Shown here: piece by piece, positions 34,583-45,633 of the stretch
How positions within the stretch are numbered: position 1 is the first letter of the stretch
Layout of the letters: each line of letters starts with the position of its first letter
Origin: Streptomyces sp. NK15101
Lineage (GTDB): Bacteria > Actinomycetota > Actinomycetes > Streptomycetales > Streptomycetaceae
Reading direction: 5' to 3'
NCBI RefSeq assembly: GCF_020400725.1
Contig: NZ_JAINVG010000001.1
Location: forward strand, 124,001-188,000
DNA: 64,000 nt
Translations under genes and position numbers: made by a program
The notes under the pieces: generated by a model
What the model was told of the DNA's origin: nothing
Database searches by the model: none
What the model saw: only the letters and a program-made list of their open reading frames with translations

Positions 34583-35289
34583 GCGGGCCCCTGAAGGAGT
34601 TCGCCCGCCGTGAGTGGGGGCCGCTGTTCACCACCGTACGGACGGCGCTCGTCACCGGGAGGTGGCGAGCGGTCCCGATGACGCTGGGCGCCGTCTGTCT
34701 GACCGCCCTGTTCCAGCTCGTGCAGAACCAGGACTGGGGCTATCAGCCGGTCCAGGACATCGGCTCCGTACGGGCCGAGGACCCCCTCTGGCTCGCGCTG
34801 CTGCGGACGCCGCCTTCGCTGTTCGTGCCCGCGCTCGACCTGCCCGTCTGGGGCGCCCTCGCACAGGTCCTGCTGGTGTTCGGGATCGCCGAGATCTGCC
34901 TCGGGCGGTGGCGGACGCTCGCCGTCGCCTATCTGGCGACGCTGGCCGGCACGCTCTACGCGCGCGTGGGCATCGCCCTCGGCCCGGACGGTCCCCTCGG
35001 GCTGCCCGCCTCCGACGCGCAGGTCGTCGACACCGGCCCCTCGGCGGCCGTGGTCGGCCTCGCCGTCTACGTCTGCTGGCGGTACGGGGCGCGGTGGACG
35101 GGTGCGCTCGTGGTGCTGGCGATGGTGATCGAGGTCGTGGTCAAGGCGAACCTGGCGGGCAAGGAGCACCTCGCGGCGATCGCCGCCGTCCTCGTCCTGA
35201 TCGCGGTCCAGGCCTGGCGCGGACGGGGTCAGGACGGCGTCGAGCCCCGTCCGGGCACGCGCTCCTGGAAACCGCCGATCAGGTCCTGA
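34579..35289 (+). CDS. Rhomboid-like integral membrane protein
   Basis: 236 residues, about six hydrophobic segments. The arrangement VFGIAEICLGRWRTLAVAYL ... SAAVVGLAVYVCWR ... NLAGKEHLAAI resembles rhomboid-like folds, but the catalytic GxSx/His pair is not clear, so it may be a pseudoprotease. TTG at 34579 overlaps the upstream stop (TTGA) and follows GGAGAG. Coupled to the DUF2156 gene. The 3' end overlaps the convergent neighbour by 61 bases. Confidence 0.75.
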   Translation: MSGPLKEFARREWGPLFTTVRTALVTGRWRAVPMTLGAVCLTALFQLVQNQDWGYQPVQDIGSVRAEDPLWLALLRTPPSLFVPALDLPVWGALAQVLLVFGIAEICLGRWRTLAVAYLATLAGTLYARVGIALGPDGPLGLPASDAQVVDTGPSAAVVGLAVYVCWRYGARWTGALVVLAMVIEVVVKANLAGKEHLAAIAAVLVLIAVQAWRGRGQDGVEPRPGTRSWKPPIRS

Positions 35290-35993
35290 ACCCTGCGCCG
35301 CACCCTGGTCCAGCGCTTGTCGTGGCGGTAGGCGCGGATCCGGGAGCGGGCCCTGGCGCGGTGGCGGCGGCCGTAGAGGCGCCGGGACCACCAGGAGCCG
35401 GGGCGGGCCAGCCGGACGGCGCCGATGATCGCCACGAACGGGACGAGGATCCCGAAAACGGCCATCCGGACCTTCCCCTTCATCAGGGTGACCAGGACGA
35501 TGAGGAAGTTCAGCGCGACGGTGAGGATGAAGGCGGTCCGGTCCTGGCGCTCCTCCGTCGTCATGTCGTTGACGCCGAGCGGTGAGAAGCCGCTCAGGGT
35601 GAGCAGGACCAGGGCCGCGGTGAGCACGACCACCTCGACGCTCTTGCGGCCCTCGTCCGACCAGTACACGTCGTCGAGGTGGAGGATGAGCGCGAACTCG
35701 TCCAGGACGAGCCCCGCGCCGATCCCGAAGACGACGGCGAAGACGGCCGCGGCGACGCCGTACCGGTCGCTGGCCACCGCGCCGAATCCACCGAGGACGG
35801 TGAGGACGACGCCCGGCACGACGTGATGGATGTGGAGGCCCCCCGAGGAAACGTTTCGGAAAGGCCCCTTCCCCGCCCGGATGAGCCGGGTGACGGTGCG
35901 GGTGACCAGGAATGTCAGGACGAAGGAGGTCAGAGCGAGCAACATCGGGAGCTTGCCCGGCTCGACGATGTTCCGGGAGAACCAGTGACCCAT
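35229..35993 (-). CDS. Polytopic membrane protein of unknown function
   Basis: 254 residues with about six transmembrane helices between 12 and 210, and a very basic C-terminus (RRLYGRRHRARARSRIRA). A histidine-rich segment SSGGLHIHHVVPG and acidic LVLDEFALILHLDDVYW lie between helices; His and Asp there could bind a metal. Similar proteins are annotated only as integral membrane proteins. ATG at 35993 follows GGAAGGGGG. Its last 61 bases overlap the end of the rhomboid-like gene on the other strand. Confidence 0.8.
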   Translation of the reverse strand: MGHWFSRNIVEPGKLPMLLALTSFVLTFLVTRTVTRLIRAGKGPFRNVSSGGLHIHHVVPGVVLTVLGGFGAVASDRYGVAAAVFAVVFGIGAGLVLDEFALILHLDDVYWSDEGRKSVEVVVLTAALVLLTLSGFSPLGVNDMTTEERQDRTAFILTVALNFLIVLVTLMKGKVRMAVFGILVPFVAIIGAVRLARPGSWWSRRLYGRRHRARARSRIRAYRHDKRWTRVRRRVQDLIGGFQERVPGRGSTPS

Positions 35994-36060
35994 GCCACCC
36001 CCTTCCGATATGTGAGGTATGCGCAATCTACCGTCCGGGGGCGGCGATTACCCTGCCCGG

Positions 36061-36834
36061 ATGGACGGCCTGCGTTTCGCCTTCGGCACCCTCACCGTGT
36101 TCCCCGCCCGCATCACCCGCTGGGACCGGGACGCGGCGCGGGCCGGCATGCTCTGCGCCCCGCTCGCGGGTCTCGCCGTCGGGCTCTGCTCCGCGGCCGC
36201 CGGCGGCGCGTTCCTGCTGCTCGGCTCGGGTCCGCTGCTCGCGGCCGTCGTCACCACCGCCGTCCCCGCCCTGCTCACCCGGGGCCTCCACCTCGACGGC
36301 CTCGCGGACACCGCCGACGGCCTCGGCAGCGCCAAGCCCGCCGAGGACGCGCTGCGCATCATGAAGCAGTCGGACATCGGCCCGTTCGGCGTCATCGCCC
36401 TGGTCCTCGTCCTGCTCGCCCAGGTCGCCGCGCTGTACGAGCTGTACGGAGAGGGCTGGGCGCGCGGCACCGTCGCCGCGGTCCTCGCCGCCACCGTGGC
36501 CCGCCTCGCCCTCACCCACGCGTCCCGCCACGGCGTCCCGGCGGCCCGCCCCGAGGGCCTCGGCGCGATCGTCGCCGCGACGGTCCCGACCCGCTCCGCG
36601 ACCCTCACGACCGCCCTGCTCCTGGTCCTCGGCGCCGCGGCGGGCCTCCTGCTCTCCCCGTACGACGCCGTCCGCGACGTCCTGGCGGCCGGCGCGGGCC
36701 TCGGCGCCGCGGCACTGCTGCTCCGCCGGTGCGTGCGGCGCTTCGGCGGGGTGACGGGCGACGTGTTCGGCGCGGTCGAGGAGACGGCGGCGACGGCGAC
36801 CCTGGTGGCGCTGACGCTGGGCTCGGCGGGCTAG
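36061..36834 (+). CDS. cobS: Adenosylcobinamide-GDP ribazoletransferase
   Basis: 257-residue membrane enzyme that joins adenosylcobinamide-GDP and alpha-ribazole, the last assembly step of cobalamin. Signature TRGLHLDGLADTADGLGS with the Mg-binding Asp residues, then MKQSDIGPFGVIALVL and FGGVTGDVFGAVEE. About seven helices. ATG at 36061. It is 4.5 kb from cobU-cobT, separated by unrelated membrane-protein genes. Confidence 0.94.
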   Translation: MDGLRFAFGTLTVFPARITRWDRDAARAGMLCAPLAGLAVGLCSAAAGGAFLLLGSGPLLAAVVTTAVPALLTRGLHLDGLADTADGLGSAKPAEDALRIMKQSDIGPFGVIALVLVLLAQVAALYELYGEGWARGTVAAVLAATVARLALTHASRHGVPAARPEGLGAIVAATVPTRSATLTTALLLVLGAAAGLLLSPYDAVRDVLAAGAGLGAAALLLRRCVRRFGGVTGDVFGAVEETAATATLVALTLGSAG

Positions 36835-36853: not shown

Positions 36854-37654
36854 CTAGCAGGGCCGGCGCCAGGCGTCCAGTTCGTACCGTTTCCGCATGG
36901 AGCTGAGGCCCAGCTTCCGGGTCTCGGGGCAGAACTGGTCCGCCGTCAGCTCGTACTCGACGTGGAAGACGGCCTTGCCCGCCGTGACGAACGGGACGAG
37001 ACGGCCGCACTCGTCGTACTCGGCGCACTGCTCGTTGACCGCGAAGTCGAAGTCCGGGAGAAGTTCCGGGATCTGGTCCAGATCGTTCTTGAGGCCGACC
37101 GCGAGGCCCCGCTCGTGGGCCATCGCGGCGATGAGGCGGTTGTAGCGGAGCTGGTCGGCGGCGGTCAGGGGGAAGCCGGTGCGGTTCTCGTAGCCGTCCA
37201 TGTTGTCGGGTTCGACGGCGTCGAAGCCCTTGTCCCGGCACATGTCGAGGCGCTTCGCCATGAGGGGCGCGAGGAGGTCGGTGCGGCGGATGTCGAGCCA
37301 GCGCTCGCCCTCCCAGCCGTTGCCCTTGCCGAGGAGCGGCTTCGGGAAGTCGCCGGCGTCGGGGCGGAAGTCCTCCCAGGCGCCGGTGGACAGGTAGCAG
37401 ATGACCTTGCGGCCCCGGCGGTGGAGGTCGGCGACGGTCGACGCCGGGTGGTCGAAGCCGTCGATGTCGTACACCGGGACGTCGACGGCCGGGTCGAGCG
37501 TGCCGCTGAGCTGCCACTGCCAGGCGAGGCCGGGGGCCGGCCGCCAGCGGTCGTCGGTCGTCTTGGGGTCCGGGCCGGGGCCGGGGGCCGCCGTGCAGGC
37601 CGTGGCGAGGAGCAGGATCCCCACGAGCAGGGCCGTCACGCGGGCGGCCCTCAT
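36854..37654 (-). CDS. GH114 endo-alpha-1,4-polygalactosaminidase, lipoprotein
   Basis: 266 residues. Lipoprotein signal with lipobox LLATAC, then a GH114 TIM barrel: WQWQLSGTLDPAVDVPVYDI, VICYLSTGAWEDFRPDA and the catalytic-site region GFDAVEPDNMDGYENRTGF, then AVNEQCAEYDEC. GH114 enzymes cut alpha-1,4-linked galactosamine polymers; Aspergillus Ega3 is one. Last gene of a five-gene operon; its ATG overlaps the spherulin-4 stop (ATGA). In exopolysaccharide operons such hydrolases trim or release the polymer. Confidence 0.92.
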   Translation of the reverse strand: MRAARVTALLVGILLLATACTAAPGPGPDPKTTDDRWRPAPGLAWQWQLSGTLDPAVDVPVYDIDGFDHPASTVADLHRRGRKVICYLSTGAWEDFRPDAGDFPKPLLGKGNGWEGERWLDIRRTDLLAPLMAKRLDMCRDKGFDAVEPDNMDGYENRTGFPLTAADQLRYNRLIAAMAHERGLAVGLKNDLDQIPELLPDFDFAVNEQCAEYDECGRLVPFVTAGKAVFHVEYELTADQFCPETRKLGLSSMRKRYELDAWRRPC

Positions 37655-38271
37655 CGGGCGGGCTCCAGGAGGTGCGGGAGGGTGCCCCAGGGGTGCGCGC
37701 CCGCGCCGGGGACGGCGCAGTGCACCGGGGTGGCCGGGCGGAAGTCCGCCGGGGCCGCGTAGACGAGGTGGCAGTAGTGGGCGGCGACCGGCAGATCGAG
37801 CGTCCGGTACGTGTCCCAGGGGCCCTCGAAGGTGACGAGGAGGTCGGCCTGCGCCTCGTAGCCGGGGTCCGGGTGGGCGCCGTGGTTGAAGACCAGGGTC
37901 GCGGCCCCGGCGGCCCGGGCCGCGACCGCGATGCGGCGGTAGTGGGCGAGGGCGGCGGGCGCGGTCGCCGCCTGGTCCAGGAAGGCGCCGTCGGCGCCGT
38001 ACCAGTCGCGGTGGCGGACCAGTTCGGCGATGACCTCGGCGTGCGGGCGGCGTCCGTAGGCGGTGTCCACGTAGCCGAGGACCCGCACCCCGGCCGCCCG
38101 CAGCCGCCCGGCGGCCTCGGCGAACGCCGGGTCGGGGGCCGCGCCGGCGCCGCTCGCCGGATTGAGGACGACGCCGTACAGGGACGGGGCCGCGCCGACG
38201 AGCGCCGACCAGGCCTCGGGGCGTTCGGACGGGTGCTCGTAGTACGGCACCAGGAGGGAGGGGTTCGTCAT
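37651..38271 (-). CDS. Spherulin-4 family glycoside hydrolase (GH135/Sph3-like)
   Basis: 206 residues. Family pattern: SLLVPYYEHPSERPEAW at the start, VVLNPASGAG, GVRVLGYVDTAYGRRP, DWYGADGAFLDQA, LVFNHGAHPDPGYEAQ and DLLVTFEGPWD. Fungal Sph3 (GH135) is required for galactosaminogalactan synthesis. The usual Asp-Glu pair after GIFF is Asp-Gln here, while the Glu in VTFEG is kept. No signal peptide is seen, so it may act inside the cell or leave another way. ATG at 38271 is 7 bases from the upstream stop. Confidence 0.9.
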   Translation of the reverse strand: MTNPSLLVPYYEHPSERPEAWSALVGAAPSLYGVVLNPASGAGAAPDPAFAEAAGRLRAAGVRVLGYVDTAYGRRPHAEVIAELVRHRDWYGADGAFLDQAATAPAALAHYRRIAVAARAAGAATLVFNHGAHPDPGYEAQADLLVTFEGPWDTYRTLDLPVAAHYCHLVYAAPADFRPATPVHCAVPGAGAHPWGTLPHLLEPAR

Positions 38272-38278
38272 GGCGTCC

Positions 38279-40147
38279 CTAAGCGCGGTGGGCGGTCGGT
38301 CGTACCAGCAGAGCACAGGTCAGGGCGGCGAGCACCGCCGCCGCTCCCCCGGCGGCCACCGGGCCCGCCGCCGGCTGCACCGTCTGTGCGGCCGCCGCCA
38401 GCAGGCAGACGGTGGCGGCGCTGAGCACCGCCCCGAAGGCCTGGAGCAACAGCCCGAGCCAGAGCACGGCCCCGATCAGGAGCAGGGTGGCCAGGCGCGG
38501 GAGCGTCGGCCACGGCGCGCCGGGCCAGGCCAGGGTCGCGGCGAGGGTGAGGGCGAGGAGCACGGTGAGGTAGCCGCCGAGGCAGAGCACGAGGGTGCCG
38601 GTGACCGCCCGGCGGAACTCGCGGGCGGTGGTGAGGGTCCGCAGCCGGGTCAGGCTCTCGCCCCGGAAGCGGTGCAGGAGCCACTCGGCGGGGCCCATGG
38701 AGAGGGTGAGCGCGATGACCGCCCCCGCCCCGCTCACCAGCGTGTCGGCCACGCCCGCGTGGAGGACGAGCAGGCCGCTGCCGAGGCCGAAGAGGCCGTA
38801 CGGCAGGGAGGCGGTCCGCGGGGGGCCGCCGCGGCCCCCCGCGCCCCGGCGGGCGCCGGGGCGCAGGACGAGCACGGCGAAGGCGACGGACGCGGTGAGG
38901 GAGGCGAGGAGCAGTCCGGCGCGCAGCGCGTCGGGCAGGTCCCAGCGGAAGGCGGGGACGGCTCCGGCGAGCGGCAGCAGGGCGCAGAGCAGGGCCCGTT
39001 CACGGCCGAGGACGAGGAGTGCGGTCGCGGCGGCGAGGTAGAGCGACTGGCCGGCGGCGAAGACGGCGGCCGGGATCTCGCCGGGCCCGGCGGTCACGAG
39101 GGCGACGGCCGTCCCCGCGAGGGCGCCGGCCGGGGCGCCGGTGAGCAGCGCGCGGGCGGCGGCGGGCCGGTCGCCGAGGCCGAGCCAGGTGTACGCGCGG
39201 TGGGAGAGGGCCTGGTTCCAGACCCAGCCGGTGACGGCCCCGGCGAGCAGCGGGACGGTCCCGGCGGGGAGCCCGAACCTGCCGTGTTCCGCGGCGAGCA
39301 GCGGGGCGGCGAGGACGTACGCGAGGCCGGGGAGCGCGAAGACGAGCCCGCGCAGCAGACAGCCCCAGAGCTCGCTGTGCCAGGCGCCGGCGGACGGCGC
39401 CGACGGTTCGGGGTGGCGCCGCTCCACGCGCGCGTAGAGGTCCTCGGCGAGGGAGAAGGAGTCGGCGCGGCCGTAGGTGAGCCGGATGTGCTCGTCGGTC
39501 ATGCCGTCGGACTCCAGGATCGCGGCGATCTCGTCCGGGTGCACGGCGGCGGCGACGAACCCGTCGAGCCGCTCGGCGAGTTCGTCGAGCGGATCAGCGG
39601 CGAGACCGTCTCCGGCGGGAGGCGGGACAGCGGAGGGCGGGGCGCCCTCCGCGGCGAGCTCGCCCCCGGCGGGGGGCGGGCCGATCCGGGCCGGCTGCCC
39701 GGCGACGGGCGCGGGCCGGGCCGGACGGACCGGGGCCCCGGCGGGGCCGGCTGCAGCCGAGGGCCCGGCGGCCGCGGGACCGACAACAACCGGCGGACCG
39801 GCGGTCGCAGGACCGGAAGGAACCGGCGAGCCGGCAGTCGCAGGACCAGCAATAACCGGCGGGTCGGCAGCCACGGGACCGGCAGGAACCGGTGGGGCGG
39901 TCGGGGGCGGCGGGCCGGCGGTGTCCGGTGGGAGTGGGGCCGCTCGTCCGGTGGGCGTCCCGGGCCGGGCGGTGCCGGGCGGGGTCGGATGCCCGGCCCG
40001 CCCGGCGGCTGCCGTCCCGAGTGCCCGGGGCGGAGCCCCCGCCCCCGCGCCCGGGGCTTGGTCGGGGCGGGCCACCCGGGGCCGGGGGATGCCGGGAAGC
40101 GGGGTCGCCCCCGTCGTCGGGGGCTTCAGCCAGAGGGAGCCGCTCAT
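38279..40147 (-). CDS. Large polytopic membrane protein with Pro/Ala-rich N-terminus
   Basis: 622 residues. The first 190 are low-complexity Pro/Ala/Gly with imperfect repeats (GPATAGSPVPSGPATAGPPV). A short soluble domain follows (HPDEIAAILESDGMTDEHIR, about 205-250), then about ten to twelve transmembrane helices (265-620). It overlaps the PelF-type glycosyltransferase by 4 bases (ATGA), so it is the likely membrane partner that exports the polymer, the place taken by PelG in Pel loci and by the helical part of fungal Gtb3. I see no clear sequence match to PelG. Stop TAG at 38279. Confidence 0.85.
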   Translation of the reverse strand: MSGSLWLKPPTTGATPLPGIPRPRVARPDQAPGAGAGAPPRALGTAAAGRAGHPTPPGTARPGTPTGRAAPLPPDTAGPPPPTAPPVPAGPVAADPPVIAGPATAGSPVPSGPATAGPPVVVGPAAAGPSAAAGPAGAPVRPARPAPVAGQPARIGPPPAGGELAAEGAPPSAVPPPAGDGLAADPLDELAERLDGFVAAAVHPDEIAAILESDGMTDEHIRLTYGRADSFSLAEDLYARVERRHPEPSAPSAGAWHSELWGCLLRGLVFALPGLAYVLAAPLLAAEHGRFGLPAGTVPLLAGAVTGWVWNQALSHRAYTWLGLGDRPAAARALLTGAPAGALAGTAVALVTAGPGEIPAAVFAAGQSLYLAAATALLVLGRERALLCALLPLAGAVPAFRWDLPDALRAGLLLASLTASVAFAVLVLRPGARRGAGGRGGPPRTASLPYGLFGLGSGLLVLHAGVADTLVSGAGAVIALTLSMGPAEWLLHRFRGESLTRLRTLTTAREFRRAVTGTLVLCLGGYLTVLLALTLAATLAWPGAPWPTLPRLATLLLIGAVLWLGLLLQAFGAVLSAATVCLLAAAAQTVQPAAGPVAAGGAAAVLAALTCALLVRPTAHRA

Positions 40148-41688
40148 GCCGGGGTGCCTCCCGTGACGAGGGCCGGGGAGGTGCGGCGCGGGGCGGGGAT
40201 GCTCAGGCGGAGGGGTTCCCGGGGCAGCGGGGCGGGGCGCGGCGGGCGGCCGCCCGCGAGTTCGCGGTAGATCTGCCGGAAGCCGTCCACCGAGCGGTGC
40301 AGGGTGAACTGGTCGATCACGCGCTGTCGGGCCCGGCGGCCCAGCTCGGCGCGGCGGGCGCCGTCCCGGAGGAGGGCGGAGACGGCGGCGGCCATGACGG
40401 CCGGTTCGCGGGGCGGGACGACGATCCCGGTGTCGCCGACCGCTTCCCGTACGCCTCCGACGTCCGTGGAGACGGTGGCGCGGCCGCAGGACATGGCCTC
40501 GATGAGGGAGAAGGGGAAGCCCTCGCTGATGGAGGAGAGCATGACCACGCTGCCGGCCGCGTAGGCGGAGGGCACGTCGGAGACGCGGCCCTCGAAGGAG
40601 ACGCCGTCGGCGACGCCGAGTTCGGCGGCGAGTTTCTCCAGGCGGGTCAGGTAGTCCTCGTTCCCCGCCGGGACCGGGCCGAAGAGGCGGAGCCTCAGCT
40701 CGGGGAGTTCGGCGCGCGAGATCGCGTACGCCCTGATCAGGGTCTCCAGGTCCTTGATGGGGTCGACCCGGCCGCACCAGCTGAGGGTGGGGGTCTCGGG
40801 TTCGGGTCCGGCCTCGGGGAAGAGGGCCGGGTCGACGCCGTTGTAGACGGTGCGGATGCGGTCGGCGGGAGCTCCGCCGCGCTCCTCCCAGCGCCGGTTG
40901 TACTGGTTGCAGGGGGTGATGAGGTCGGCCTTGCGGTAGCCGAGGGTGTTGAGCTCGCGGTAGAAGCCGAGCATGAGCGCCTTGACGGGCCAGCGCTGTG
41001 CTTCGGTGCGGTAGCCGAGGTAGCGCTCGCGGAGGTAGATGCCGTGTTCGGTGAGCAGGAAGGGCACCCCTTCGAAGTGCTGCGCGGCGAGTGCGGGCAG
41101 CGTGGCGAGGCCGCTGGAGACGGCGTGCGCCACGCCGCCGGTGGCTATCCGGGCGGCGAGCGGACGGAGGGCGTGTTCGAGCAGGTCGGTGGCGGTGAGC
41201 GCGTCGTGGACGGTGGGCCGGGCCGCGAGCGTCGGCAGGTGCGGCATGGTCCAGATCCACATGAGGGAGCGCAGGGCCGGCTCTGAGCGGAGGGCGGCGG
41301 TCAGCCGTCCCTGCCGGGCGAGGGCGGCCAGTTCGTACAGGCTCGCGCCGAAGTCGCGGCCCGCCGCGGGGTCGAGGAGGGCGAGCAGGAGTCCTTCGTA
41401 CGCGTCGAGGAAGCGACGGCGTTCGCGCCCCCGCAGGCCCCGGCGCGCGCGCCCTGGCGCGGCCGGACCCTGCGGAAGGCCCCAGAGGGGGTAGGCGGTG
41501 TGCCGGGTGACGTTGGGCGGCAGCTCCCACGTGACGGGTTCGCGGCCGCTGCCGGTGAGGGCGAGGATCTCGAAGTCGACCTCCGGCATGCCGCGGACGA
41601 GCTGGTCGCACCAGGTGCTGACGCCGCCGTGGACGTGCGGGTAGGTGCCTTCGGTGAGCATGGTGACGTGACGGCCACTGCTCGGCAT
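40144..41688 (-). CDS. PelF-type GT4 glycosyltransferase
   Basis: 514-residue cytosolic GT-B glycosyltransferase. N-terminal GRHVTMLTEGTYPHVHGGVS and TWCDQLVRGMPEVDF, and HGIYLRERYL are typical of PelF; the C-terminal domain has YNGVDPALFP, LSWCGRVDPIKDLETLIRAY and the E-x7-E segment SEGFPFSLIEAMSCGR that binds the nucleotide sugar. PelF polymerizes a hexosamine from a UDP-sugar. ATG at 41688. It lies 26 bases downstream of the deacetylase gene and overlaps the membrane-protein gene. Confidence 0.93.
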   Translation of the reverse strand: MPSSGRHVTMLTEGTYPHVHGGVSTWCDQLVRGMPEVDFEILALTGSGREPVTWELPPNVTRHTAYPLWGLPQGPAAPGRARRGLRGRERRRFLDAYEGLLLALLDPAAGRDFGASLYELAALARQGRLTAALRSEPALRSLMWIWTMPHLPTLAARPTVHDALTATDLLEHALRPLAARIATGGVAHAVSSGLATLPALAAQHFEGVPFLLTEHGIYLRERYLGYRTEAQRWPVKALMLGFYRELNTLGYRKADLITPCNQYNRRWEERGGAPADRIRTVYNGVDPALFPEAGPEPETPTLSWCGRVDPIKDLETLIRAYAISRAELPELRLRLFGPVPAGNEDYLTRLEKLAAELGVADGVSFEGRVSDVPSAYAAGSVVMLSSISEGFPFSLIEAMSCGRATVSTDVGGVREAVGDTGIVVPPREPAVMAAAVSALLRDGARRAELGRRARQRVIDQFTLHRSVDGFRQIYRELAGGRPPRPAPLPREPLRLSIPAPRRTSPALVTGGTPA

Positions 41689-41714
41689 GAGCGGGTCCCC
41701 CCAGGACGTGCTGG

Positions 41715-43820
41715 TCAGGCGGTCGGGAGCGTGAGTGTGACGGCGGTCTGGAGCGGTTCGGGCGTGGTCCAGGCGGAGCGGGTGCCCGCGTAGGCCGTCC
41801 CGAAGGCGGTGCTGCCGAGGAGGAGCCGCTTGCGGGTGCCCTCGGGGGCGGTGACGGGCACGTTGACGCCGGCTGGTGCCTTGACGGTGACCGTGGTGCC
41901 GATGCGGTAGGCGGTGACCTTTCCGGTGGCGACGGCCTGGTCCCAGGCGGCGCGGCGGTTCAGTTCGGTGCCGGCCTCCTTCTGGGCCGGGTTCACCAGG
42001 GGCGTGTTCGCCGCGAACAGGGCCCGGTAGTCGGCGAGCACGCGGTCGAGGACGGGGTAGAGGAGGCGCTCCTCGGCGAGGTTGGACTGGTGCACGTAGT
42101 GCGGCCGGGGGTCGTTGCCGAGGACGTGGGAGAGGGCGGTGCGGGCTTCCTGCGGCACGATGTGGTCGGCGTAGCCGGTGGTCGTGGGGAGCGGTGCGGG
42201 CAGGCAGGTGGAGGCCGGGTCGGACTCGCAGATGCCGCTGCCGCCGTCGGCGCGGGAGGTGTAGATCCAGTTGTACTCGTCGGTCATCTCGGCGGCGGTG
42301 CCCACGTTGTAGTACACGTTCATCGGGTGGCGGGGCACGGTCCTCGCGGCGCCGGTGCCCACGGCGCGCTGCTCGGGTTCGCGGGAGTTGTCGCTCGCGG
42401 TCCACTTCACGCCGTTGTCGGCGAGGGCGCCGGCGAGGTTGGGATTGTCGACGGGCTGCTGGGGCAGGGTCCTGAGGCCGGAGTGCTCGCCGGTGACGAG
42501 TTCGGAGCGGTCGACGGAGATGCCCTTGCCGACGGCCCAGTTGTGGTTGTCGCGGATCTGGCCGGAGAGTTCGGAGCGGCTGACCCAGAGGGTGTTGCCC
42601 GCGGTGTCCGTGGCGCACCGCCAGGGGACGACGGTGTTGTCCTGGACGCAGCCGAGGAAGGGGTGGGTGTAGGTGTGGTTGATCCACCGGTACTGGGCGC
42701 GGTCGGCGACGAGCCGGTCGGTGAGCGGGTCGGTGCCGCCGTGCTCGGTCTTCCACTGTTCGCCCTGGCCGCCGTTGTAGACCATGTCGAGCTTGAAGCC
42801 GGAGGACTTCTGCCAGGCGGCGGCGTACTGGGCGTCGGCGGCCGTCATGCGGATGGGATCGGCGCCCTCTCCGTCGTCGCCGACGCAGTCGAAGTCGCCG
42901 GGGGTGCAGTTCAGCGCGACGTCCCAGCGGGCGTCGGGGGCGAAGACGTCGTCGACGTGGACGGAGAGGTAGTTGCGGCTCTGCCCGAGGTGGACGCCCT
43001 GGGTGAGCCAGTCGACGATGCCGCGGGCGAGGGCGCGGAACTGCCGCTGGTACCGGTTGTAGGCGAAGGTGACGACGAGTTCGCGGCGCCCGTCGGCGGC
43101 GTACTCGCCGACGAGGCTGGCCCGGCCGCCGCCGTCGACGGGGATGTCGAGGTAGCTGGTGTAGCCGGCCCGGGGGCGGCCCGCGTAGCCGTAACTCTCG
43201 GCGATCGCGGGGTCGTTGTCCTCGAAGGCGAGCGTCCCGGCGAGGTACCGGAAGGGGCCCGCCTGTCCCGCGGCGGTGACGCCGGCGGTGGTCCCGTCGA
43301 GGACGCCGGACCAGCCGCCCTGGTCGGTGTAGTCGAGGCCGACGCCGGGGTGCGACCAGGTGTAGGCGTCGACCTGCGGGATGCCGAAGGTCCGCTCGTA
43401 CGCCTGGAGGGCGGTCTGCTCGGCGGAGTCGGGGCCGAAGGCGCTCTCGTGGGGCAGGACGACGCCCTGGTACTTGGCGCGGGGCCGCCCGTCGACGGTG
43501 TCGCTGAGGAAGGCCGCGTCCAGGACGGGCCGGTTCGGGTCCCCGAGGTCGATCCTGCGGTACGGGACGCCGGCGCCCTTCAGCTCGGCGGCGATCGCCC
43601 CGACCGCGCTGCCGCCGTCGTCGACGACGAGGACGGTGAGGTCCACGCGGGGCGCCGTCGTCTCGGCGACCGCCTGCGCGGACGGGACGACGGTGGCGAG
43701 GAGCGCGGCGGCGGCGAGGGCCGCGATCCTGCCCGTGCGGGGCGCGGTCCCGCCCGTACGGGACGTGGTGCGGGCGGTGCGGGACGCGGTTCTGGGCGTA
43801 CGGATTCGGTCGGAGTCCAT
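41715..43820 (-). CDS. Exported polysaccharide deacetylase-like protein (Agd3/PelA type)
   Basis: 701 residues. Signal peptide (RIAALAAAALLATVVPSAQA). Residues 50-250 form a Rossmann or carbohydrate-binding-like region (DLTVLVVDDGGSAVGAIAAE). The central domain carries NYLSVHVDDVFAPDARWD with the metal/catalytic Asp pair and RWINHTYTHPFLG with the HxxxH-type metal histidines, a deacetylase core as in CE18 enzymes (fungal Agd3, PelA C-terminal part). A later His is in RHPMNVYYN. Such enzymes partly remove N-acetyl groups from hexosamine polymers. ATG at 43820. First gene of the operon. Confidence 0.82.
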   Translation of the reverse strand: MDSDRIRTPRTASRTARTTSRTGGTAPRTGRIAALAAAALLATVVPSAQAVAETTAPRVDLTVLVVDDGGSAVGAIAAELKGAGVPYRRIDLGDPNRPVLDAAFLSDTVDGRPRAKYQGVVLPHESAFGPDSAEQTALQAYERTFGIPQVDAYTWSHPGVGLDYTDQGGWSGVLDGTTAGVTAAGQAGPFRYLAGTLAFEDNDPAIAESYGYAGRPRAGYTSYLDIPVDGGGRASLVGEYAADGRRELVVTFAYNRYQRQFRALARGIVDWLTQGVHLGQSRNYLSVHVDDVFAPDARWDVALNCTPGDFDCVGDDGEGADPIRMTAADAQYAAAWQKSSGFKLDMVYNGGQGEQWKTEHGGTDPLTDRLVADRAQYRWINHTYTHPFLGCVQDNTVVPWRCATDTAGNTLWVSRSELSGQIRDNHNWAVGKGISVDRSELVTGEHSGLRTLPQQPVDNPNLAGALADNGVKWTASDNSREPEQRAVGTGAARTVPRHPMNVYYNVGTAAEMTDEYNWIYTSRADGGSGICESDPASTCLPAPLPTTTGYADHIVPQEARTALSHVLGNDPRPHYVHQSNLAEERLLYPVLDRVLADYRALFAANTPLVNPAQKEAGTELNRRAAWDQAVATGKVTAYRIGTTVTVKAPAGVNVPVTAPEGTRKRLLLGSTAFGTAYAGTRSAWTTPEPLQTAVTLTLPTA

Positions 43821-44124
43821 GGCGGGTGTCCCCCCTCGACGGGCCCCGCCCGAACCGGCAGGACCCGTGGAGATGTCGCAGATGAGGCGAAGGACGGTGT
43901 GTCGTCCTTGCATGAATGAGGCGAGTGTGACCGGGCGACAGAGGCCGAAAGGGTAAACATGAAAGAGACACCACGGATGAGTGAATCAACGCCGCCGTGA
44001 TCGAACCTTGTGAGCGAGCGTAGGCTCGTTCTCGGCGCTCTCCGGGCCGAAATACGATGCGGCGGGCACGGTCGGCCCATCCCTCGACCGCCACAGAACT
44101 CAATGGAAGCGAGATTTCACCACC
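43821..44124. promoter_or_regulatory. Divergent promoter region, exopolysaccharide operon / pepA
   Basis: 304 bases between divergent starts. It contains an imperfect inverted repeat AGCGAGC / GCTCGTT around 44013-44030 that includes TAGGCT, a possible -10. I see no small gene here. Confidence 0.4.
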
Positions 44125-45633
44125 GTGACTGCTCTCACTCTCAGCACTGCCGGCGCGGCGACGCTGCGCGCCGACGCCCTGGTCGTCGGCGTCGCGAAGT
44201 CCGGGAAGACCCTGGTCGTCGCCCCGGGCGCCGAGGCCGTCGACAAGGCCTTCGACGGCCGGCTCGCCGCCGTCCTGGAGACCCTGGGCGCCTCGGGTGC
44301 CGAAGGTGAGGCGACGAAGCTGCCCGCCCCCGCCGGTCTCAAGGCTCCCGTCGTCCTGGCCGTCGGCCTCGGCGAGGCCCCCGAGGACGGCGAGTCCTTC
44401 GGTGCGGAGACCCTGCGCCGCGCCGCCGGCACCGCCGCCCGCACCCTGACCGGCTCGAAGAAGGCCGCGTTCGCGCTGCCGATCGCCGCCGCCGACGACG
44501 CCGCCGCCATCGCGGAGGGCGCCCTGCTCGGCGCGTACGCCTACACCGCGTACCAGGAGAACGGCAAGGACGCGAAGAAGCCCCTCGCCGAGGTGGCCCT
44601 GCTCGGCGCCAAGCCGCGCGACAAGGCCCACAAGGCCGCCGCCGAGCGCGCCCAGGCCGTCGCCGAGGAGATCAACCGCGCCCGCGACCTGATCAACCAG
44701 CCGCCGAACGACCTGACCCCGGCCGCCTTCGCCGCCGTCGCCCAGGCCGCCGGCAAGGAGCACGGCCTCAAGGTCCAGGTCCTCGACGAGAAGGCGCTCG
44801 CCAAGGGCGGCTACGGCGGCATCCTCGGTGTCGGCGCCGGCTCCGTGAACCCGCCGCGCCTGGTCCGGATCGCCTACACCCACCCGAAGGCGGAGAAGAC
44901 CCTCGCCCTCATCGGCAAGGGCATCACCTACGACTCGGGCGGCATCTCCCTGAAGCCGGCCGGCCACAACGAGACGATGAAGTGCGACATGAGCGGCGCC
45001 GCCGCCGTGTTCTCCGCCGTCGTCGCCGCGGCCCGCCTCGGCCTGGAGGTCAACGTCACCGGCTGGCTCGCCCTCGCGGAGAACATGCCGTCCGGCTCGG
45101 CCACCCGCCCGGGTGACGTGCTGCGCATGTACAGCGGCAAGACCGTCGAGGTCCTGAACACCGACGCCGAGGGCCGGCTCGTCCTCGCCGACGCGATCAC
45201 CAGGGCCTCCGAGGAGCACCCGGACGCCATCGTCGACGTGGCGACCCTGACCGGCGCCATGGTCCTGGCGCTCGGCGACCGCACCTTCGGCATCATGGCC
45301 AACGACGACGACTACCGGACCGCGATCCACGAGATCGCCGAGGAGGTCGGCGAGCAGTCCTGGCCGATGCCGCTCCCCGCGGAACTGCGCAAGACCATGG
45401 ACTCCCCCACCGCCGACATGGCGAACATGGGTGTCCGGATGGGCGGCGGCCTGGTCGCCGGCCTCTTCCTGCAGGAGTTCGTGGGCGAGGGCATCACCTG
45501 GGCCCACCTGGACATCGCGGGCCCGGCCTTCCACGAGGGCGCCCCGTACGGCTACACCCCGAAGGGCGGCACCGGCTCCTCGATCCGCACCCTGGTGAAG
45601 CTGGCCGAGCGCACGGCGGCCGGCGAGCTCTGA
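44125..45633 (+). CDS. pepA: Leucyl aminopeptidase
   Basis: 502-residue M17 cytosolic aminopeptidase with two metal ions. The active-site lysine and metal ligands are in LIGKGITYDSGGISLKPAG and MKCDMSGAAAV, and the signature NTDAEGRLVLADAI is present. The N-terminal 170 residues are the Ala-rich macro-like domain. GTG at 44125 is weakly preceded by GGAAGCGAG. Single gene, followed by a terminator. Confidence 0.96.
   Translation: MTALTLSTAGAATLRADALVVGVAKSGKTLVVAPGAEAVDKAFDGRLAAVLETLGASGAEGEATKLPAPAGLKAPVVLAVGLGEAPEDGESFGAETLRRAAGTAARTLTGSKKAAFALPIAAADDAAAIAEGALLGAYAYTAYQENGKDAKKPLAEVALLGAKPRDKAHKAAAERAQAVAEEINRARDLINQPPNDLTPAAFAAVAQAAGKEHGLKVQVLDEKALAKGGYGGILGVGAGSVNPPRLVRIAYTHPKAEKTLALIGKGITYDSGGISLKPAGHNETMKCDMSGAAAVFSAVVAAARLGLEVNVTGWLALAENMPSGSATRPGDVLRMYSGKTVEVLNTDAEGRLVLADAITRASEEHPDAIVDVATLTGAMVLALGDRTFGIMANDDDYRTAIHEIAEEVGEQSWPMPLPAELRKTMDSPTADMANMGVRMGGGLVAGLFLQEFVGEGITWAHLDIAGPAFHEGAPYGYTPKGGTGSSIRTLVKLAERTAAGEL

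Follow-up and report, generated by a model that had tools for sequence, protein, structure and literature searches.

A 64,000-nucleotide stretch of the Streptomyces sp. NK15101 genome (contig NZ_JAINVG010000001.1, positions 124,001 to 188,000; hereafter the window, with positions counted from its first letter) contains a five-gene operon that, judging by its sequences and by models of its products, probably specifies a compact machine for exopolysaccharide production, a Gram-positive, synthase-dependent system of the galactosaminogalactan/Pel type. A first-pass annotation, made from the letters alone, had read it as a bacterial galactosaminogalactan/Pel-type operon, and protein families, folds, catalytic residues and conservation all support that reading. 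Bamford et al. (2020) reported Agd3 homologues in 45 bacterial species and described bacterial agd3 operons encoding an Agd3 homologue, a cytoplasmic glycosyltransferase and a multi-spanning membrane protein, consistently with a GH114 protein and, in some Actinobacteria, a spherulin-4 protein (PMC7229062). This is the set of genes found in the window, which contains the Agd3 homologue, glycosyltransferase, membrane protein and GH114 gene by which such operons are recognised; it therefore belongs to a kind already described, and the main text of that paper gives no difference in gene content from it. What is new here is the precise anatomy, the exporter fold, the predicted division of the hydrolases between inside and outside, and the exchangeable precursor modules of the relatives. 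In the main text of PMC7229062 the words 'dehydratase', 'dehydrogenase' and 'GalE' are absent and 'epimerase' occurs twice, both times for the fungus; there is no mention there of sugar-nucleotide modules or of a cytosolic GH135. Among the papers listed by our literature searches, judged by titles and opening lines, none characterises an operon of this kind in Streptomyces. The operon and its flanks are as follows, with D, F, M, S and G denoting the Agd3-like deacetylase, the PelF-type GT4, the membrane protein, the spherulin-4/GH135 protein and the GH114 protein.

43820-41715, minus strand: D, Agd3/CE18-like exported polysaccharide deacetylase (701 amino acids; signal peptide, N-terminal CBM87-like domain, CE domain, C-terminal beta domain)
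41688-40144, minus strand: F, PelF-type GT4 glycosyltransferase, cytosolic (514 amino acids; NF038011, PF11997, PF13692; without hydrophobic segment)
40147-38279, minus strand: M, polytopic membrane protein, predicted polymer exporter (622 amino acids; MOP-superfamily (MATE/Wzx/MurJ) fold in the model)
38271-37651, minus strand: S, GH135/spherulin-4 glycoside hydrolase, predicted cytosolic (206 amino acids; PF12138)
37654-36854, minus strand: G, GH114 endo-galactosaminidase-like lipoprotein (266 amino acids; PF03537)
43821-44124, no strand: divergent intergenic region separating the operon from pepA, where, from the gene positions, the operon promoter is presumed to lie
44125-45633, plus strand: pepA, leucyl aminopeptidase (PF00883, 399 bits), a flank outside the system that defines type A loci
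36019-36834, plus strand: cobS, cobalamin-5-phosphate synthase (PF02654, 157 bits), a flank outside the system

All five genes are open, run leftwards in the order D-F-M-S-G and together span 36854-43820, with 26, -4, 7 and -4 bases at the successive junctions. Order and spacing are thus as first annotated (five leftward genes with 4-base overlaps or gaps of 7 and 26 bases), and the products named there are borne out: an exported deacetylase-like protein with HVDDVF and NHTYTHP motifs by its signal peptide and motifs, a PelF-type GT4 by a family score above cut-off, a polytopic membrane protein with the addition of a MOP fold in its model, a spherulin-4 protein by its Pfam and Sph3 matches, and a GH114 lipoprotein by its Pfam and Ega3 matches, with a loose lipobox. 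The profile searches proposed at the same time, against CE18, GT4 PelF, GH135 and GH114, all gave matches, that for CE18 through the Agd3 structure profile and not through Pfam PF25115; the structural match to CE18 that was asked of the deacetylase is found both by profile and in the model.

D begins with a hydrophobic signal and contains both motifs, and its residues D290, D291, H382, H386 and H577 are invariant in an alignment of 27 rows. The sole significant match of the corresponding profile in the PDB is Agd3 of Aspergillus fumigatus (6NWZ, E 2.2e-17), followed by a heparan sulfate N-deacetylase at E 0.35; a single-sequence search of the PDB with D gave nothing significant. The profile alignment pairs D290/D291 with D377/D378 of Agd3 and H577 with H668 (Agd3 residue numbers being the chain numbering of the structure plus 122, by our own count), and the HxxxH pair (H382/H386), which falls outside this alignment, is assigned by motif alone. 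In Agd3 the two aspartates serve as base and metal ligand, the HxxxH motif binds the metal, and the C-terminal histidine is the acid (PMC7229062). The AlphaFold2 model of D (mean per-residue confidence, pLDDT, 87.6) matches 6NWZ in Foldseek with E 2.7e-27, and its residues 56-701 superpose on Agd3 142-805 across all three domains (Z 28.6, root-mean-square deviation 2.9, 542 residues). By fold and motifs D is CE18/Agd3-like, and it is predicted to deacetylate an alpha-1,4-linked N-acetylgalactosamine (GalNAc) polymer. The second-closest solved fold to the model is human heparan sulfate N-deacetylase/N-sulfotransferase 1 (Z 24.1, 426 residues, across the CBM87-like and CE domains).

F scores 167.3 bits with the PelF equivalog NF038011 (cut-off 100), with residues 8-474 matching positions 2-489 of the 489-position profile. 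M comprises a Pro/Ala-rich N-terminal stretch, a small conserved helical domain and then a MOP-superfamily fold, and it gives no match to Pfam or NCBIfam at E up to 1. The AlphaFold2 model of residues 183-622 (pLDDT 92.3) aligns by VIA-align with MATE1 (Z 20.3), WzxE (15.2) and MurJ (12.7); matches by Foldseek alone are weak, with a best E of 5.1e-4. PelG, the membrane protein of Pel systems, belongs to the MOP superfamily (PMC13254593). M is unmatched by the PelG family (PF16933), which also has no match in the window's own genome and a positive control in Thermotoga maritima, and none of the 50 structural matches listed for M is named PelG. Profile comparison of M with PelG by hhalign gave a probability of 0.2; because the PelG side consists of two near-identical actinobacterial rows, this value does not show the two to be unrelated. 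By its model M is a MOP-fold protein and is predicted to be the polymer exporter. The Pro/Ala/Thr-rich part of M is long (residues about 40-180, window 39600-40030) and is nearly missing in some relatives (L071, L075, L105).

The two hydrolases score above the Pfam cut-offs of their families. S scores 96.8 bits with PF12138 (cut-off 30.2) and matches the Sph3 structure 5C5G with E 4.1e-9; D99 is kept in 66 of 66 rows and E149 in 66 of 67, and in the alignment they face an Asp and a Glu of 5C5G at a spacing of 56 residues, which we take as the catalytic pair. We take the pair in Sph3 to be Asp166/Glu222. It is printed as Asp196/Glu222 in PMC12054363. G scores 294 bits with PF03537 (cut-off 27) and matches Ega3 (6OJ1) with E 1.9e-57; D150 and E208 are each kept in 47 of 48 rows with the spacing of Ega3 D189/E247, and a hydrophobic N-terminus is followed by the loose lipobox ATAC. 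At 46% identity (96 of 207 aligned residues) this Streptomyces GH114 protein is nearer to Aspergillus Ega3 than is the member from Fusarium solani, at 33-35% (PMC12054363).

The predicted compartments of the two hydrolases differ. The window's S has neither a signal peptide nor a hydrophobic segment, and its sole upstream start, a GTG at 38316, adds 15 residues and still no signal. Most of its 66 script-called homologues begin at the barrel domain and some have short extensions with no obvious signal (that of L116 is a fragment); these starts were chosen by script as nearest to the window's start, so that the lack of a signal is well founded for the window's S and, in the others, depends on how the genes were called. 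Fungal Sph3 has been described as a membrane-bound enzyme with specificity for the fully acetylated polymer, which it is proposed to cut outside the cell on release from the synthase (PMC12054363), and it has been termed an N-acetylgalactosaminidase and Ega3 a galactosaminidase (PMC12345266). Since S lacks a signal peptide, a family that cuts acetylated polymer is predicted inside the cell, and the galactosamine-specific family (G) outside, behind D. For Streptomyces we thus predict an acetyl-specific hydrolase on the side where the chain is still acetylated and a galactosamine-specific one on the other, and we infer that S acts on the nascent or stalled chain.

In the mechanism that we propose, F would polymerise a uridine diphosphate (UDP)-N-acetylhexosamine at the inner face of the membrane, the likeliest substrate being UDP-GalNAc from a GalE whose gene lies elsewhere; M would export the chain; the exported D would remove part of the N-acetyl groups to give a cationic polymer; G would cut deacetylated stretches outside; and the cytosolic S would cut still-acetylated chain inside, for length control or rescue of stalled polymer. 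Sister operons, described below, combine the same machine with other sugar-nucleotide genes, so that the monomer may differ by operon type. The sugar, its linkage, the direction of transport, the inside role of S and the biological role (hyphal adhesion, aggregation, matrix) are what we infer.

Comparison with the two characterised systems shows both likeness and difference. Like the A. fumigatus galactosaminogalactan cluster (uge3, gtb3, sph3, ega3, agd3), the operon has clustered homologues of Agd3, Sph3 and Ega3 together with a glycosyltransferase and a membrane part; in the window, however, the latter two are separate proteins, the operon has no epimerase gene, and the GH135 protein has no signal peptide or membrane anchor, whereas Sph3 is membrane-bound (PMC12054363). 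With Pel operons (pelABCDEFG; pelDEADAFG in Gram-positive bacteria) it shares a PelF equivalog, a MOP-fold exporter and an extracellular deacetylase, but M is unlike PelG by Pfam and by the (weak) profile comparison, and the deacetylase is nearer in fold to Agd3 than to PelA.

Several observations weigh against the proposed machine. D misses the curated cut-off of the Agd3_CE family PF25115 (22.8 against 27.6 bits, E 5.5e-5), and our assignment of D as an Agd3 homologue therefore relies on fold and motifs and leaves it outside PF25115; a scan with PF25115 matched nothing in the window's genome or in any of 14 control genomes, and because D itself scores 22.8 bits this blank reflects sensitivity and not absence. 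The residue after the catalytic Asp of S is a Gln where Sph3 has a Glu (Glu167), an acidic residue that presumably has a role there. No epimerase for UDP-GalNAc is encoded among the five genes, whereas the fungal cluster has one; the two GalE proteins over the curated cut-off that the window's genome encodes outside the operon speak, in turn, for the proposed machine. Nor do the five genes include a PelD- or PelE-like gene, or PelB or PelC, and a PelD search of the genome gave no match, as it also did in the control genomes. Losses at related loci and the sugar-nucleotide modules of sister operons, both discussed below, count on the same side: the former show that G is dispensable and that D can stand alone, and the latter mean that GalNAc should not be taken for granted as the monomer across the whole group.

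A product bound to the wall, such as a teichoic-acid-like polymer or a wall galactosaminoglycan in place of a free exopolysaccharide, would agree with the predicted membrane anchoring of GH114 and with the discussion in PMC7229062, which notes galactosamine-containing polysaccharides in Streptomyces walls. These polysaccharides, together with an endo-alpha-1,4-galactosaminidase that S. griseus was reported to secrete (PMC7229062), equally support the machine proposed above. We think a wall-bound product unlikely, as there is no ligase or polyprenyl-phosphate transferase among the five genes, and the synthase-dependent relatives, Pel and galactosaminogalactan, are exopolysaccharides.

The operon is widespread in the genus. 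A D homologue is present in 53 of 101 sampled Streptomyces genomes, the window's own included, in 18 of 296 genomes of the class and in 13 of 396 of the phylum (profile, stricter limit). We retrieved up to 20 kb around 80 D matches from the genus and class searches; the window's own locus was excluded, as were further fragments from a place already sampled, one fragment being retrieved later. In 42 of these 80 loci (the window not counted) D lies beside pepA as it does in the window, and we refer to these as type A. All five genes, whose staying together in related genomes the first-pass annotation had put forward as a check, are held by 23 of them; 11 lack G (one of which, L098, sits near a contig end), one lacks S, one lacks both S and G, three have D alone beside an intact cobS, and three are on early-ending contigs (D-F, D-F and D). 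When counted without discounting contig breaks, F is kept with D in 38 of the 42 and M in 36. In 24 type A loci F is kept and cobS or its neighbour is in view; ten of these are without G (nine DFMS, one DFM), and together with the three loci with D alone they show G to be dispensable. A second Streptomyces set (the best 80 of 574 loci) lies entirely beside pepA; it shares genomes with the first sample, so that totals over both (115 F, 81 G) count some genomes twice. Retention of the block beside pepA across the genus indicates that these genes form an old Streptomyces locus that has been conserved, and are not neighbours by chance. We rejected damaged genes as the explanation for stops flagged in these searches, since no blast match to the five proteins contains a stop; the flagged matches reach the last residues of the query, and the stops, not checked singly, are taken as the genes' own ends.

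These loci also bear on whether the enzymes might instead serve a catabolic or competitive role, degrading galactosaminogalactan or Pel of fungi or other bacteria. The three flanked type A loci with D alone, the predicted export of D and G and a soil habitat would suit such a role, which we nevertheless consider very improbable: the operon has a PelF-type synthase and a MOP-fold exporter, accompanying D in 38 and 36 of the 42 type A loci respectively, and S is predicted to be cytosolic. In L050, L065 and L103, where D stands alone between pepA and cobS, the deacetylase has outlived the synthase and exporter and may have another use.

Among the 80 retrieved loci, 33 are Streptomyces D loci away from pepA, and 27 of these carry three further genes: legB, for a LegB-type NAD-dependent 4,6-dehydratase; ntp, for a sugar-phosphate nucleotidyltransferase; and sdr2, for a second short-chain dehydrogenase/reductase (SDR). 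We call an operon with this module type B; the module defines the type, and its presence throughout type B is thus no result. In nearly all cases the module sits between M and S. The LegB of L075 scores 453.7 bits with TIGR04180, just below the cut-off of 475, and the next family scores 168 bits. We take the LegB substrate to be nucleoside diphosphate (NDP)-N-acetylglucosamine; if LegB acts as its family name says, the type B product would be a 4-keto-6-deoxy sugar and, after reduction, a 6-deoxy sugar. The six remaining loci away from pepA comprise one without a module (L078), one with the deacetylase only (L097), two on short contigs (L087, L093), one that is decayed with legB and parts of sdr2 remaining (L116), and one with a different module (L117).

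Orthologues of legB, at 82-100% identity where the next proteins reach at most 55%, are found in 25 of the 101 Streptomyces genomes, all at type B loci or their remnants: 21 are in one block with D, and the other four are split over contigs (G099), with a piece of D (G016), without D (G095) or decayed (G069). The window's genome (G000) has no legB orthologue at 1e-90 and the window's operon no module gene, and we therefore rejected the idea that the type A sugar is supplied by a legB module elsewhere. Deacetylase genes of both operon types occur in 9 of the 101 genomes, which may make two different polymers. Two of the remnants are type B operons in decay: in L204 (G016) D is reduced to a C-terminal piece with the other genes present, and most of the L116 (G069) genes are fragmented, legB being the most intact.

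Modules also occur in other families. L113, from another family, keeps this module at the same position (64% identity for legB, 65% for ntp and 42% for sdr2; LegB 458 bits). In L115, from a third family, and in L117, the second such locus of a Streptomyces genome, ntp and sdr2 are accompanied by an NDP-sugar dehydrogenase (TIGR03026, 292 and 308 bits respectively, cut-off 190) and another SDR. L112, from a fourth family, carries galE (337 bits against a cut-off of 262) immediately ahead of F-M-S-G; its D gene is divergent, a second GH135 gene stands in between, and the locus covers all functions of the fungal cluster; GalE near Gram-positive pel operons is already known (PMC7112168). An ntp search of 246 class genomes gave 11 orthologues, ten of them at such clusters (that of G095 without D). 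For the eleventh, in G290 (L212), the surrounding 10 kb or so contain no such cluster, which counts against the link between module and machine. Taken together, these gene arrangements suggest one synthesis-export-deacetylation machine with an exchangeable precursor supply.

Two residues mostly follow the module. Of 39 type A rows, the window's included, 38 have Thr at F residue 25, which directly follows GGVS (GGVS-x-W), and all 27 type B rows have Val, counted over the first genome sample and the window; blast alignments covering every retrieved locus, with some genomes counted in both samples, give Thr for 115 of 115 type A loci and Val for all 30 that hold ntp and legB. L111, L112, L200 and L078 also have Thr, as does the better PelF-like gene of the two in L202; the PelG-linked PelF of L199 and L201 has Ser, and the ntp-carrying L113, L115 and L117 have Val, Ile and Leu. 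At G residue 151, after the nucleophile, Asn is present in 25 of 25 type A rows and Leu in 18 of 18 type B rows, on the same sample; Asn recurs in L111, L112, L114, L202 and Ega3, and Leu and Val in the two GH114 proteins of L113.

There are reasons for caution with these correlations. L078 (G089), which has the five-gene order away from pepA and no module, combines Thr25 in F with Leu151 in G; L093, a short contig ending in F, has Val25 with no module in view; and the second, weaker PelF-like gene of L202 has an Arg at residue 25. Both positions were picked post hoc, and F alone has 19 near-fixed differences between the operon types. In a PelF tree types A and B are sisters, L113/L115/L117 branch outside them and L111/L112 further out; a branch that sets type A apart is present in 96% of bootstrap trees, and the program warns of long outer branches (L112 is labelled B there solely because its galE gives a weak legB match). 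Because the loci represent few clades, about two independent changes underlie the correlation. We regard the co-variation of F25 and G151 with the module as a lead, post hoc and with exceptions. Other candidate markers were rejected: F residue 350, which is Cys in PelG-linked PelF and some module-less loci, and S positions 12, 17 and 193, which separate the two types but ignore the module in other families.

These data raise the possibility that the machine is a general one for amino-sugar polymers, with each operon type feeding it a different NDP-sugar (a 6-deoxy-amino sugar, a uronic acid or GalNAc), and that its monomer is something other than GalNAc. Such a scheme is quite possible without being the one we would choose: the legB, ntp and sdr2 genes in 27 of 33 loci away from pepA, in the same order in L113, the LegB-type dehydratase at 454 bits against a cut-off of 475, the ntp, sdr2 and above-cut-off NDP-sugar dehydrogenase of L115 and L117, and the tracking of the module by F25 and G151 argue for it. 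The window's operon, in contrast, has no module genes and its genome no legB; its F has the Thr25 of the galE-bearing L112, close to the Ser of PelG-linked PelF, and its residue 151 in G is that of Ega3. For the window's own monomer GalNAc is thus the better guess. Extending this, we tentatively envisage an actinomycete family of cationic polymers, GalNAc-based where there is galE or no module, built of 6-deoxy-amino sugar where there are LegB, nucleotidyltransferase and SDR, and oxidised where there is an NDP-sugar dehydrogenase, with synthase and hydrolase perhaps tuned at F25 (Ser/Thr against Val/Ile/Leu) and G151 (Asn against Leu/Val).

Galactosaminogalactan and Pel hold together the biofilms of major pathogens, and enzymes that cut them are studied as agents against biofilms; a Streptomyces version of the machine would offer a safe and genetically tractable system for the whole pathway. 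Its product is a possible matrix polymer of mycelial pellets in industry, and the operons provide material for testing the idea that fungi acquired their cluster from bacteria. If modules do change the monomer, the sister operons would be a source of new cationic polysaccharides and of matching hydrolases.

Some further observations concern neighbouring and related loci. A membrane-like protein encoded at 35229-36026 (minus strand), outside the operon and with no Pfam match and no NCBIfam match above cut-off, is a constant neighbour beside cobS in type A loci that reach that far. The actinobacterial cluster L202:5513-8406 has two adjacent PelF-like genes and a GH114 gene, with an Agd3-like gene only in pieces. 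Finally, L199 and L201 (G399 and G427) encode a PelG over cut-off and a PelF-like protein; the gene immediately following PelG is Agd3-like, a GH135 gene lies on the other strand, and by this gene content they are an apparent bridge between Pel and Agd3 operons.

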